A stretch of 64,000 nt of DNA, taken from positions 962,688 through 1,026,687 of the forward strand of contig JBDRYS010000001.1 of NCBI GenBank assembly GCA_039803545.1, read 5' to 3'. Both the position numbers and the translations under genes were made by a program. Positions 57,520 to 63,669 of this stretch are shown piece after piece (position 1 is the first letter of the stretch; each line of letters starts with the position of its first letter). Below the pieces are notes generated by a model, which ran no database searches, was not told the DNA's origin, and saw only the letters and a program-made list of their open reading frames with translations. This DNA comes from a candidate division WOR-3 bacterium. GTDB taxonomy: Bacteria > Hydrothermota > Hydrothermia > UBA1063.

Positions 57520-59199
57520 TCATAATTCACCCAAACCTTCGTATGGATCACCTTTAGAACAGACCTTCAGAAAAATACTAAAGATCTTGGGATCGAAATG
57601 GGAAGGCCGTGTTTTCTTATCACCAACGAGCAAAATTTTTAAAGCCGCTTCATGGGATAGCCCCTTTTTATAAGGCCTATCGCTTCTCAAAACATCGTAT
57701 GTATTAACAACTTTAACGACCCTTGCCGGGAAGGGAATCTCATCACCTTTAAGTCCAAAAGGATATCCTGTGCCGTCGTAATTTTCGTGGTGATAAACCG
57801 CAATCTCCCGAGCAATTTTTAACTCTGGATGGGACAGCAGCTTTTCTGCATAAATAGTGTGCTTCCTTACCAATTCTCTTTCTTCCTCAGTGAGTGGCCC
57901 ACTTTTATTTAAAAGAGAAGCAGGAATAAAAATCTTACCAATATCATGCAAAATAGAAAACTCAACGATGGAGTTTTTATAATCTTCGTCGATTTCCATA
58001 TTGTCAAGGATCAATTTCGTTAGATACCTTACCCTTTTCAGGTGTCCTACATCCTCAGGATCAAATCTTTCGGCAAGAATCGCTAATTTTTCAGAAAAGT
58101 TATAAAAAGCCCCTTTGAACTTCTTTAACAAAACTTCATTCTCCTTGATTATTTCTTTTGTTCTCACAACATAGGTATGTAAAACCCTTATTAAGTCAAA
58201 AACTTCTTCCGTATAGATTTTTTTCTCGATTTTTTTAGGATCCTCGAGATTCTTCACCATTTCAGTTAAATTGGTTAAAGTCGAACTCTCCTCTATTACC
58301 AACTTTTCAAAATACCTCGCCACCACACTAAGGGTGGTAATTAAAATCGCATAAACCAGCAAGTTAAACAAAAAGACAGAGAAAAGAGGGTAAAAATCAA
58401 GTCTTACAAACAATAAACCCTGTAATTTGTTTGAACCTACGTAAAAATACATTGTTTCTTCGAGATCCCTGTAAAACGGGTGGCTTCTAAAGGTTCTCTC
58501 AGGATAAGGTGGAAAATACTCTAAAAGAGGCTTTTTCCCGACACTGTAAATGCCGATATCCTTCATAAAAACCGATAGTTTTCTTAGCCGCTCAATACTT
58601 GCCTTATACACTGTAGGGTTTACATCCAAAGAAAGATCCAGATAATATTTTGAGTTTATCCTTGTGTATAAATAGGTTCGCATTTTGGCATCCCGGGAAG
58701 AAAAACTCACGGGCATGAAATAGGTGGCTCCCTTAATTAAATTCCTTACACTGTCCCATAAGGTACCAAATTCTTTCAAATCCAGATTTAGAAATTCTTT
58801 CTTTGTAGAATAGACAACAACCCCATTGCTATCGATTACTGAAAGCTCAATGTTATTGTAAAAAGAGTCGGGTAAAGAATTCAAAAATTGGTTTTTCAAT
58901 ACAATAAGTACGTTGCTTATGTTTTCGGGACTAACCCTCATCAGATCCTCAAAGATCTGTACATTAGATAGTATCAAGCTATCAAAATACTGCCTTCTTC
59001 CTTTAGACCCGGTATAAATCTCATTAATGGTCTGATTTAAAATAAGTTCAACCCTTCCCGGAATCTTCCGCTCTATGTTAACCGCAAGACGGTTAATTCT
59101 ATCTTCGGCATAGTACAGGTGCAGGACGCCAAAGGTAATTATAACGGGGATCAAAATCCCTCCGAGAACTATTGCTACCCTCTTCCTTATCGGCTTCAT
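57520..59199 (-). CDS. membrane HD-GYP domain protein 1
   Basis: A 559-residue signalling protein: one membrane helix at about 8-28, an extracytoplasmic sensor domain (about 30-270), a second helix (about 273-295), a linker and an HD-GYP phosphodiesterase domain (about 365-535). Motifs are EFSILHDIGKIFIP (HD), RKHTIYAEKLL, AVYHHENYDGTGYPFGL (HH and GYP) and RVVKVVNTYDVLRSDRPYKKG. The family degrades c-di-GMP (or cGAMP) to regulate motility and surface life. Its ATG overlaps the stop of the next paralog by 4 bases. No GGDEF protein is in the window. Catalytic activity is expected since all metal ligands seem present. Confidence 0.88.
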   Translation of the reverse strand: MKPIRKRVAIVLGGILIPVIITFGVLHLYYAEDRINRLAVNIERKIPGRVELILNQTINEIYTGSKGRRQYFDSLILSNVQIFEDLMRVSPENISNVLIVLKNQFLNSLPDSFYNNIELSVIDSNGVVVYSTKKEFLNLDLKEFGTLWDSVRNLIKGATYFMPVSFSSRDAKMRTYLYTRINSKYYLDLSLDVNPTVYKASIERLRKLSVFMKDIGIYSVGKKPLLEYFPPYPERTFRSHPFYRDLEETMYFYVGSNKLQGLLFVRLDFYPLFSVFLFNLLVYAILITTLSVVARYFEKLVIEESSTLTNLTEMVKNLEDPKKIEKKIYTEEVFDLIRVLHTYVVRTKEIIKENEVLLKKFKGAFYNFSEKLAILAERFDPEDVGHLKRVRYLTKLILDNMEIDEDYKNSIVEFSILHDIGKIFIPASLLNKSGPLTEEERELVRKHTIYAEKLLSHPELKIAREIAVYHHENYDGTGYPFGLKGDEIPFPARVVKVVNTYDVLRSDRPYKKGLSHEAALKILLVGDKKTRPSHFDPKIFSIFLKVCSKGDPYEGLGEL

Positions 59200-60881
59200 T
59201 TCTCCCCGTAAAGTTTTTGATGATCGATCTTTTCAATCTCTTCAATAAATATTGCCAATAATTGAGGATCAAAATCGGCTGGTTTAGTTCTATCATCACC
59301 TTCCGTCATTATTTTGAGAGCTTTAGAGTGGGAATACGCCTTTTTGTATGGTCTTTCACTCCTTAATGCATCATAAACATCAACAATTCTCACAATTCTT
59401 CCAGGTAAAGGGATCTCTTCACCTTTGAGCCCGAAGGGGTAACCACTACCATCGTAGTTTTCGTGATGATACAGGCAAATTTCCTTAGCTACCCGAAACT
59501 CATCATCCGAAAAGAGATTTGCGCCCAGAATAGTATGTTTCTTCACCAACTCCCATTCCTCGGAATTTAGCTCCCTTTGCATTTTCAGGATATCAAGGGG
59601 AATGTAGATTTTCCCGATATCATGTAGAACTGAGTAATTAATTATTTCATCTGCGTAATCCCTGTCAATTCTGAGTCTATTTACAATTATGCTTGTTAAA
59701 TATTTTACCCTCATCAAATGCTCGCCTGTCATGTGTTCATAACTTTCTGCAACCACCGCCAATTTTTCAGCAAAATCAAAAAAGGCCTCTTTCGTTCTAG
59801 TTATAAGACTTACGGACCTAATTTCCTCTTCTTTCAACCTATCCACCAGAGAATTCAGTGTAAGAGTGACATCATGAATCTCTTTTAACTTAAAACCTTT
59901 GATTTCACCTCTTGGAAGCTCAGATGAATCAACGGTAGAAATCCAACTTTGAATTTTACTTAAATCCTTCTTCACAATCGAATATTCATTCAACGCAACA
60001 CCGTAAGTTAAAAGGAACACTACAAGGAAAATGATCACGCCCAGTAAAAAAATGGAATACATTTCGAAAAAATTTAATCGAAGCAGCACATTCAGCTTTT
60101 CTGACCAGGCACCAAAGGCAGGTATGGATAGAGTAGCTTTCAAATCGCGCTTATAAAACTCCCACCATTTCAAAGGGGTCAACAAGGATGAATCAACGGA
60201 AAGTAAGGAAACTCCCTCGGCATTAAGAATCTTTATCGATTGGATAAAAACAGAAAGGTCTTTGATTCTTTTAATCTGGGGGAGATAAAGACCGGGGTTC
60301 AATATAAAAGCGGCACCGATAATGTCACCTTTACTTAACCTTTTGAAAACAAAGGTTCTTCCAACACCTAAATTCCCAACAAAAGTAAAGGGATACAAAC
60401 ACGTTCCTCTTTCATCCAGTTCCATCTTTAAAGCAGACAAAAATTCACGGTCCTTTAGAAAAGTTGAGATTCCAGAGTCTGGTTCAGTTACCCACTTAAT
60501 ATTGCCCTCTTGATCAAATACATAAAAAGCAACGTCAGTGAAAGGTGTATCCTTTAATAGGATCCTCGTTTTCTCTTTAACCAATTGCCCATCGACCGTC
60601 TCGTAACCCTTAGCATTAATGATAGCCCGATCAAACTCGATCTGTCCTTCGAGTAAGATTCTTTCAATAGTTTTTCTTTCCAAAAATACTTCCTCCGAAA
60701 TTGAAGAAACCAAAGAATTGATAACTGCCTCGACCCTTGGCTTGATTTCCTTAGACACACGAGAAGAAATATTTGTGATGTTTTTCCACGAATAAAAACA
60801 AGACAAAGAGGCTGAAATGAGTAATACAGGGAAAATAATGCCAAAAAACAATAGACGATAATAATACTTAATCGGCTTCAA
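59196..60881 (-). CDS. membrane HD-GYP domain protein 2
   Basis: A 561-residue paralog with the same plan: N-terminal helix (about 9-29), periplasmic domain, second helix (about 270-292), HD-GYP domain with NYSVLHDIGKIYIP, KKHTILGANLF, CLYHHENYDGSGYPFGL and RIVRIVDVYDALRSERPYKKAYS. The start is TTG at 60881, supported by TGGAG a few bases upstream and by the MKPIRK/MKPIKY match with its neighbour. The sensor domains of the three paralogs are much less alike than their HD-GYP domains, suggesting different signals feeding one output. Confidence 0.88.
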   Translation of the reverse strand: MKPIKYYYRLLFFGIIFPVLLISASLSCFYSWKNITNISSRVSKEIKPRVEAVINSLVSSISEEVFLERKTIERILLEGQIEFDRAIINAKGYETVDGQLVKEKTRILLKDTPFTDVAFYVFDQEGNIKWVTEPDSGISTFLKDREFLSALKMELDERGTCLYPFTFVGNLGVGRTFVFKRLSKGDIIGAAFILNPGLYLPQIKRIKDLSVFIQSIKILNAEGVSLLSVDSSLLTPLKWWEFYKRDLKATLSIPAFGAWSEKLNVLLRLNFFEMYSIFLLGVIIFLVVFLLTYGVALNEYSIVKKDLSKIQSWISTVDSSELPRGEIKGFKLKEIHDVTLTLNSLVDRLKEEEIRSVSLITRTKEAFFDFAEKLAVVAESYEHMTGEHLMRVKYLTSIIVNRLRIDRDYADEIINYSVLHDIGKIYIPLDILKMQRELNSEEWELVKKHTILGANLFSDDEFRVAKEICLYHHENYDGSGYPFGLKGEEIPLPGRIVRIVDVYDALRSERPYKKAYSHSKALKIMTEGDDRTKPADFDPQLLAIFIEEIEKIDHQKLYGEK

Positions 60882-61018: not shown

Positions 61019-62536
61019 TTAAAATATCGATGATAAATCAGCTTTTTCCAGGGCTTCGAGAAATTTCTTGAGCAAAACGGGATCAAAATGTTCCGGCTTC
61101 GTTCTATTATCACCATGAAGAAGAATCTTTACCACCTCCTCGTGAGAAAGCGGCTTCTTATAAGGTCTTTCACTCCTTAGGGCTTCGTAGACATCGACAA
61201 CTTTTATGATTCTTCCTGTAATGGGTATTGCCTCTCCAGAAAGCCCAAAGGGATAACCCGTCCCATCGTAGTTCTCATGATGATATAGGGCAATTTCAAG
61301 GGCAATTTTAAATCTTGGATGGGTGAGAAGGCGTTTCGCAAAAATTGTATGCTGTTTCATCAATTCCCATTCCTGTGGGTCAAGGGGTCCTGGCTTGGTA
61401 AGGATATTAAGCGGAATGAAGATTTTACCAACATCATGAAGAACGGAATAGTTTATAATCTCTTCTTTCAAACCCTCTGGCATTTCCAAATTCTCTACCA
61501 GCAACCGGGTCAAAAATTTCACCCTCTGCAAATGTTTCCCTGTCTCCGTATCGTAACCTTCGGCTGCAAGGGCAAGCTTCTCAGCAAAATCAAAGAAAGC
61601 TTCCTTCAGTTCTTTTACGTACGCCTGATTCTTCGTTAGCTCACTACTTATTCCCAGAGCAGCCTCCTTTAAGGTAGATAACAATCCCCTCACCTCGACC
61701 GTGCGAGAGATATCGGCATCGAAATTGATTGACTTATATTTCCTAAAATCCTCTAAAGCCTCTTTTATGTATCCTGTCTCCCTCTTTACCCATTTGGATA
61801 AATGAAGAGAGGCTAAGGCCGTCACAAAAAAGAGAAAAACAAACATTGTGAGATTAAAAATCAATATTTTGAAAAGGCTGTAGAAATTGAGTCTCGCATA
61901 AACCAGCAGTTTTTGCTCATAAGGAGGAAAATCTTCAATAGCAATCTCCCCTACTAAGTCTCTTTTATATGGGTGAAATTTCAAAAGTTTCTTAGGATAT
62001 GGAGGAAAGTCTGAAAGGATGGGTAGGTGTGCAACATTATAAACTCCTATATTTTCCAGAAAAATCGAAAGTCCCTTTAATTTCCTCAAATTCTCAACGA
62101 AATCTCTATCATTAAGCAGGAGTCCGATTTCGAGGATGTCTCCGTTGGGTAGCCTCCTATAGGCATAAACCCGCATTTTTCCAGTCATTACTTCAATACC
62201 CATTCTATGAAGCACCAGGCCTTTTTCAAGGGCTACATTCAAACTCTTCCAGAAATCTTCAAATTTTGACAAATCAAGCCCCAAATCCTCTTTGTAATCC
62301 GTCCAGATTATTTTCCCACTTTTACTTATTATGTAATAGTTAATATCCTCAAAAAGCTCGGAAGGGAACCTTTTCCTGTATTTTTCGATGACCCCTTCGA
62401 AATTTATCTGTGGATAAGATTTACCGGCAATCACTTCTTTCTCTACCTGCGCATAGAGCTCATTTAGCATTCTAATTATGTCTTTCTCGTAATAGCTCGT
62501 AGCCTTTCTAATACCACTAACGGATTCGGTGACCAA
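61019..62536 (-). CDS. membrane HD-GYP domain protein 3 (N-terminus cut off by a stop)
   Basis: The 505-codon open part, from a TTG at 62536, holds most of the periplasmic domain, one membrane helix (about 225-247) and an intact HD-GYP domain (NYSVLHDVGKIFIP, KQHTIFAKRLL, ALYHHENYDGTGYPFGL, RIIKVVDVYEALRSERPYKK). The expected N-terminal helix lies upstream in the same frame, but a TAA at 62591-62593 separates them. There is no Shine-Dalgarno sequence at the TTG, so this part may not be translated unless the stop is bypassed, translation restarts, or the stop is a sequencing error. Confidence 0.75.
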   Translation of the reverse strand: MVTESVSGIRKATSYYEKDIIRMLNELYAQVEKEVIAGKSYPQINFEGVIEKYRKRFPSELFEDINYYIISKSGKIIWTDYKEDLGLDLSKFEDFWKSLNVALEKGLVLHRMGIEVMTGKMRVYAYRRLPNGDILEIGLLLNDRDFVENLRKLKGLSIFLENIGVYNVAHLPILSDFPPYPKKLLKFHPYKRDLVGEIAIEDFPPYEQKLLVYARLNFYSLFKILIFNLTMFVFLFFVTALASLHLSKWVKRETGYIKEALEDFRKYKSINFDADISRTVEVRGLLSTLKEAALGISSELTKNQAYVKELKEAFFDFAEKLALAAEGYDTETGKHLQRVKFLTRLLVENLEMPEGLKEEIINYSVLHDVGKIFIPLNILTKPGPLDPQEWELMKQHTIFAKRLLTHPRFKIALEIALYHHENYDGTGYPFGLSGEAIPITGRIIKVVDVYEALRSERPYKKPLSHEEVVKILLHGDNRTKPEHFDPVLLKKFLEALEKADLSSIF

Positions 62537-62725
62537 AACATCTGCTCTTCTATTGATACCGTTAAAGACAAGGTCACCAATTTTTCTATATTAAACAATA
62601 GAGTAGGTAAAGCTCAGAAGAGCTGCAATAATGGTCGCAGGGAGTATTACTCGGAAAAGAATGGCCCTAAGGTGATAATCGATGGGTTGCGCTTTTCTAC
62701 TTAAATATTCTGGTAAAAAGCGCAT
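62537..62725 (-). other. upstream in-frame part of HD-GYP gene 3 with in-frame TAA
   Basis: From ATG 62725 the frame reads MRFLPEYLSRK..., then a membrane helix (AILFRVILPATIIAALLSFTYSIV), a TAA at 62591-62593, and continues YRKIGDLVFNGINRRADV straight into HD-GYP protein 3. Length and layout match the N-termini of paralogs 1 and 2. On the minus strand a promoter (TTGAAA 62754-62759, 16 bases, TAATAT 62732-62737) ends six bases before the ATG, as in the leaderless genes. So 62725 is the original start and the stop is a single-codon lesion. Confidence 0.8.
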
Positions 62726-62892
62726 GCTTAAAATATTATATACCGATCGCTGCTTTCAAACAAATTTTAGATTTGGAGGCTCTCTTGGAACCGTGTAAGA
62801 ACACTTCACTTTGTCTTTTTAAGGCTTTTCGCCCTGAACATCGGAAAATTAGGATAACTTCTTTTTAATGCCCAAGATGCCAGACTAAAGAA

Positions 62893-63669
62893 TTATCTCT
62901 TTCTTTTATCCACTTCTAAGCATGCAAAGGCGTTGTGGTTGTGAATACTCTCATAGCTCTTTACATTAATCTTATACCATAAAATCCTTGGGTCTTTGTT
63001 GAGTTTTATAGCCACCTCCCTCGCCACATCTTCAACAAAGCGGGGAGTATCATAAGCCCTTTCAGTAACATGCTTCTCATCGACCCTCTTTAACAGGGCA
63101 AATAGAGGCGATGAAGCGGAACTCTCAGCGATTTCCACAAGTTCTTCGATCCATACAAGTTTTAAAGTCCGTACCTGAATCTGAACCTCTGCCCTCTGGT
63201 TATGGGCTCCTCTCTCGGATATCTCCTTAGAGCACGGGCACAGTGTATGAACAGGCACATTAACCTCAAGTACAAAATCGAACTCGGTTCCCTTTGATGC
63301 AATAAACTTACACAAATAATTCATGTAAGATTCCAGCCTTGAGACTGGTGCTTTCTTCTTTATAAAATAAGGAAATTCCAGCTCAAGATAAGCCTTTTCA
63401 GCTTTTAGCACCTTCTTAAGCTCATCGAGAATATTTTCGATATTCTGTAAAGTGATGTTGTTGGAATGTTTATTCAAGACCTCAACAAACCTGGACATGT
63501 GAGTGCCTCTAAAGTTGTGAGGTAATTCCACAGCCAATTTGACCCTTGCAGTAGTGTGCTGGAGTACATTCGCCCTATCCATTACCCTTATCGGATAGAG
63601 TAGATCCTCTATACCCACCTTATCTATTGGGATTTTCCTTGGATCGTATTGATTCTGAACATCCTTCAT
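62893..63669 (-). CDS. folE2: GTP cyclohydrolase FolE2 (type IB)
   Basis: The enzyme converts GTP to 7,8-dihydroneopterin triphosphate, the first step to folate and to queuosine precursors, and works with metals other than zinc. The 258 residues carry family motifs: VPVHTLCPCSKEISERGAHNQRAEV with the catalytic cysteine near residue 147, TPRFVEDVAREVA and ESIHNHNAFACLE at the C-terminus. It starts two bases after the archease gene. No other folate gene is in the window. Confidence 0.95.
   Translation of the reverse strand: MKDVQNQYDPRKIPIDKVGIEDLLYPIRVMDRANVLQHTTARVKLAVELPHNFRGTHMSRFVEVLNKHSNNITLQNIENILDELKKVLKAEKAYLELEFPYFIKKKAPVSRLESYMNYLCKFIASKGTEFDFVLEVNVPVHTLCPCSKEISERGAHNQRAEVQIQVRTLKLVWIEELVEIAESSASSPLFALLKRVDEKHVTERAYDTPRFVEDVAREVAIKLNKDPRILWYKINVKSYESIHNHNAFACLEVDKRKR

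Follow-up and report, generated by a model that had tools for sequence, protein, structure and literature searches.

A premature in-frame TAA, probably a recent nonsense mutation, in the first gene of a tandem HD-GYP trio of a candidate division WOR-3 bacterium

Three HD-GYP genes lie in tandem in a candidate division WOR-3 bacterium. We found a single in-frame stop codon in the first of them, and consider it probable that a recent and otherwise ordinary nonsense mutation has inactivated this gene. The gene lies on the minus strand of the window (the whole stretch of DNA analyzed, 64,000 nucleotides). A first-pass annotation, made from the DNA letters and a list of their open reading frames (ORFs), had described it as the third HD-GYP gene. 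The label HD-GYP is correct, but in the reading direction the gene is the first of the three. The same annotation described the frame accurately: the 568 codons opened by the ATG at 62725-62723 contain one stop, a TAA at codon 45 (62593-62591), and are open elsewhere. The features discussed below are the following.

62758-62763, minus strand: possible -35 element TTGTTT, with a spacing of 17 nt to the TATAAT (sequence)
62735-62740, minus strand: -10-like TATAAT, its end 9 nt ahead of the ATG, in a leaderless arrangement (sequence, conservation)
62723-62725, minus strand: ATG start lacking a Shine-Dalgarno sequence (start-site scan)
61019-62725, minus strand: gene of 568 codons plus stop, broken at codon 45, for an HD-GYP phosphodiesterase whose sensor is membrane-bound
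62594-62665, minus strand: first membrane helix, residues 21-44, which ends the predicted 44-residue stub (sequence; helix in the model)
62591-62593, minus strand: in-frame TAA, codon 45, a glutamine codon in three same-genus orthologues (sequence and orthologue alignment)
62534-62536, minus strand: TTG, codon 64, the first in-frame start-type codon past the stop, lacking a ribosome-binding site (start-site scan)
61883-62488, minus strand: extracytoplasmic sensor region, spanning about residues 80-281 and modeled as CACHE-like (structure model and structural matches)
61112-61549, minus strand: HD-GYP domain, residues 393-538 by Pfam HD_5, both the HD and the GYP motif being intact (profile and alignment)
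59196-60881, minus strand: second tandem HD-GYP gene, intact, with a 4-nt overlap with the next gene (ORF list, profile)
57520-59199, minus strand: third tandem HD-GYP gene, intact (ORF list, profile)

Judged by profile and motifs, the interrupted gene encodes an HD-GYP phosphodiesterase of the cyclic-di-GMP (c-di-GMP) type. The HD_5 profile (PF13487) gives 107.4 bits, well over the cut-off of 27.2, and H430 D431, H482 H483 E484, G488, and G490 Y491 P492 are invariant in all 10 aligned sequences; we take these residues to be the HD and HHExxDGxGYP motifs. In the predicted structure (mean pLDDT 83, pTM 0.51), a long first helix leads into an extracytoplasmic alpha/beta domain, and a second membrane helix and a linker helix then connect this domain to the HD-GYP domain. 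Because the pTM is low, the relative placement of the domains is uncertain. The top structural matches are the HD-GYP domains 4mcw, 4r8z, and 9rbz, and the sensor part has weaker matches to ligand-binding domains of chemoreceptors and kinases, which are presumably of the CACHE type. In this predicted fold, the TAA is directly 3' of the first membrane helix and ahead of the extracytoplasmic domain. This agrees with the earlier description of an intact membrane helix and of a stop between helix and sensor: the hydrophobic helix ends at residue 44, and the stop comes right behind it.

The region upstream of the ATG is conserved among the orthologues. A -10-like hexamer is found shortly before this codon in all four of them: TATAAT at 9 nt in our gene and at 6 nt in the relative G002, TACAAT at 5 nt in G003, and, in G001, TATAAT 6 nt ahead of the ATG that forms the tenth codon of its listed ORF. 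Hence, with a hexamer 5 to 9 nt before the ATG in 4/4 orthologues, the gene looks leaderless, and the ATG is its native and still intact start codon, as had been proposed. The accompanying claim of an intact promoter stands as far as the conservation of the hexamer goes, but the promoter scan alone is weak: its 7 promoter-like sites do not differ significantly from the 4.7 (sd 2.3) obtained with shuffled sequences. Leaderless-type starts seem to be common in this genome. Among the 688 gene starts that agree with those of G002, 93 are preceded by a -10-like hexamer that ends at a distance of 4 to 10 nt, the distance being exactly 6 nt in 49 cases; five equally wide windows placed farther upstream have counts of 21 to 49.

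The gene is uninterrupted in the related genomes. The family search covered the five genomes that the collection has for this family, four of which have a match at the threshold used (G004, from another genus, has none), and it revealed a stop inside our gene and in none of the matches of the relatives. The comparison with close relatives, suggested by the first-pass annotation, gave a uniform answer: the same-genus orthologues of G001, G002, and G003 are intact, all three have glutamine in the stop column, and none shares the stop. They are, respectively, 54%, 69%, and 59% identical to the part of our protein that follows the TTG at 62536. Among the six paralogous genes in the alignment, the stop column varies. 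When the intact G002 protein is used as the query, it aligns across the stop (residues 14-570, 66% identity, reported with "1 TAA" inside), and thus the stop-interrupted gene is not the product of chance. A mechanical ORF call begins only past the stop, at the TTG at 62536, and yields 505 residues, an ORF that annotation pipelines may well report. The annotation should mark the gene as interrupted instead of listing a 505-residue HD-GYP protein.

The part of the gene downstream of the stop has no signs of relaxed selection. Over 564 columns, there are 21 lineage-specific residues in our gene and 21 in that of G002, the closest relative (confidence interval of the share, 0.34-0.66). Five neighboring genes served as controls (own/G002, 37/51, 39/36, 5/6, 17/16, and 6/7), and four of them are about as even, the exception being the one with 37 residues in our genome versus 51 in G002. 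Single-base changes that would create a stop are 244 of the 5103 possible ones, and no second stop is present; assuming equal rates and no selection, the neutral drift after the stop arose can thus amount to about 0.037 substitutions per site at most. The synonymous divergence from G002 is saturated (pS 0.81). The even residue counts and the lack of a second stop imply that the stop is young at the scale of the genus, or that the gene is still used, or that the base is wrong. They also fit the earlier remark that nothing else hints at decay, since the gene has no further lesion. Old decay was considered as a separate candidate and rejected on the even counts of lineage-specific residues.

The undiminished conservation past the stop would be equally expected of a functional gene that is still translated. 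This could happen by read-through of the TAA or by a restart of translation downstream, such that a useful HD-GYP protein would still be made. We regard this as very improbable, even if the lack of relaxed selection in the downstream frame speaks for it. The stop is shared by none of the three orthologues, a stop-reading anticodon was not found among the 46 tRNA genes (a tmRNA was also identified), and TAA is the commonest terminator of the genome (402 of 825 genes, with 290 TGA and 133 TAG). These checks of TAA use and suppressor tRNAs, both proposed in the first-pass annotation, thus disfavor the read-through that it had listed among its options. An altered code or a suppressor tRNA was rejected on the basis of the tRNA set and the terminator use. 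The two other clean nonsense genes of the genome (see below) carry TAG and TGA, and hence no single codon is being reassigned. Both types of release factor are present, RF1, which scores over the cut-off, and an RF2-like gene whose frame is open. An interruption of release factor 2 ("1 TAG") was considered and rejected, because its frame is open from MFKDP to the terminal TAG. As for a restart, codons 64 (TTG), 86 (ATG), and 98 (GTG) lack a Shine-Dalgarno match, and at the TTG the duplex energy is -2.1, whereas the median for the genome is -5.95; the leaderless ATG, for its part, reaches only -3.0. A restarted protein would also omit the first membrane helix and would be expected to misplace the sensor.

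Phase variation is known to target surface-related signaling genes, and a phase-variant state had been among the explanations first offered for this stop. That the TAA represents such a switchable state is nonetheless hardly credible. The lesion is a substitution, which slippage or inversion does not yield, and between 62300 and 62900 we found neither a tandem repeat that could serve as a slip tract nor an inverted repeat; the one repeat seen is an imperfect direct one of 12 nt that lies outside the gene.

The base could also be wrong, as the first-pass annotation had allowed, which would leave the gene intact in the organism. We consider such a sequencing or assembly error unlikely, but with a chance that is far from negligible. 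To place the stop among other lesions, we compared 968 ORFs from 1.16 Mb of G002 with our genome, 883 of which found a best hit with 45% identity or more. The raw output for our genome, 24 in-frame stops and nine split-frame pairs, was filtered by eye. The stops that we dropped were in frames that seemed to run antisense to genes, or in extensions of low identity beyond the gene. The dropped pairs were g2_C1_43429 (over a tRNA), g2_C6_73943 (46% identity), g2_C11_40854 (lesion in an apparently non-coding N-terminal stretch), and g2_C15_39106 (a run of N in G002). Eight of the 883 compared genes (about 1%) were kept as having clean lesions, three by nonsense changes and five by frameshifts (C1, C2, and C4 are contigs of our genome).

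62591-62593 of the window, minus strand: nonsense, HD-GYP gene, TAA at codon 45
C1:789681-790145: nonsense, membrane GGDEF protein (diguanylate cyclase), TAG at about 790013, glutamate in G002, 71% identical overall
C2, 356144: nonsense, rhomboid protein, TGA, tryptophan in G002, 84% identical overall
C4:60918-64339: frameshifted, GGDEF-AAA-TPR protein (long GGDEF-TPR gene), lesion at 63569
Frameshifted: ArsP-type permease, two shifts
Frameshifted: ABC2_membrane_6 protein
Frameshifted: nucleotidyltransferase/phosphomutase, residue 781 of 835
Frameshifted: radical SAM protein

Part of this pattern is what errors would produce. The TAA is a lone lesion within an otherwise conserved gene, clean 1-nt frameshifts also occur in the genome (one within eight consecutive T, two close to stretches of five A), and G002 carries similar single lesions. 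The quality of the assembly also counts against a real mutation, with 99 N in contig 1 and a contig 4 that begins inside a 16S gene. On the other hand, the nonsense changes are substitutions that affect three genes with three different stop codons and are not of the indel type. Judging from their names, the eight broken genes include no obvious core housekeeping gene, and three of them are c-di-GMP genes, which is unlike random error. As a side observation, the 3' end of the 16S-like sequence is at the start of contig 4 (C4:577), and the break of this contig is probably at an rRNA operon.

The c-di-GMP genes are over-represented among the lesions (3/8 genes; 0.0006 by length share), also when the HD-GYP gene under study is left out (2/7; 0.0095). 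Both values are post hoc: the events are few and the trend was spotted after the fact. They use a length share of 0.022, computed across all 968 G002 ORFs, 12 of which are c-di-GMP ORFs. A frameshift near position 91280 of C2 divides a second GGDEF-TPR gene (C2:90633-93996), in the vicinity of a possible nucleotide-binding motif. This gene is not among the eight and remained outside the enrichment test because its likely G002 copy is not in the compared set. GGDEF proteins of 1122-1123 residues are open in G001 and G002, and we infer that they are its orthologues. Our genome has 21 full-size c-di-GMP genes (12 GGDEF and 9 HD-GYP), of which four are broken. It also has a short HD_5 remnant with a TAA inside (C2:37083-37298), apparently an old decay. 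G003 has only 7 GGDEF and 2 HD-GYP matches, where the other three genomes have 11-12 and 10, and at the locus of our gene it lacks two of the three tandem HD-GYP genes. The domain searches flagged no stops inside the matched GGDEF and HD-GYP domains of G001, G002, and G003, where frameshifts were checked for some. Counter to the trend, G002 has one GGDEF remnant and a decayed copy of another GGDEF gene. It is tempting to suggest that the lineage is currently losing its c-di-GMP network through independent fresh hits, with a sister species (G003) whose network has already shrunk, but we hold this to be rather doubtful.

Hence, of the options first put forward, a sequencing error survives as the less likely one and a recent nonsense mutation as our preferred explanation: the orthologues have a sense codon and no decay has ensued. 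A recent mutation would have changed the conserved glutamine codon into TAA. Translation of the leaderless mRNA would begin at its 5' AUG and stop after 44 codons, and the predicted product is a 44-residue membrane stub devoid of sensor and phosphodiesterase. The two intact HD-GYP genes downstream would probably take over part of its role. The second has TGGAG ahead of its TTG start and, at a greater distance, a possible TATAAA, which suggests that it may not depend on the translation of the first. That the base is real and that function is lost is what we infer. By itself, the HD-GYP stop matters little. If the base is real, this gene and the three other broken c-di-GMP genes would make the genus a small natural case of a signaling network at an early stage of loss.

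Among solved structures, the nearest HD-GYP domain is that of 4mcw, presumably PmGH. The likeness to chain 4mcw_B is in the HD-GYP domain (37% identity over 229 columns), and the match covers only this part of our chain (TM-score 0.32 by query length). Compared with it and with membrane-bound HD-GYP phosphodiesterases, our protein is predicted to add two membrane helices and a CACHE-like sensor, and its gene is interrupted. The HD-GYP stop described here is ordinary, and of a kind already in print. Natural stops and frameshifts in c-di-GMP genes have been described in Escherichia coli isolates (PMC5635171). That report concerns EAL/GGDEF proteins with a measured phenotype, whereas our case is known from sequence; the likeness is in the single lesions that affect several c-di-GMP genes per strain, including a C-to-T change giving TAA. 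Closer still to our gene is VC1295 of Vibrio cholerae, which has a premature stop in strain C6706 and was hence taken from strain N16961 (PMC4212101). Both are HD-GYP genes with a stop in one lineage and an intact form elsewhere, in different organisms, the intact allele being found within the same species in V. cholerae and only in sister species here.
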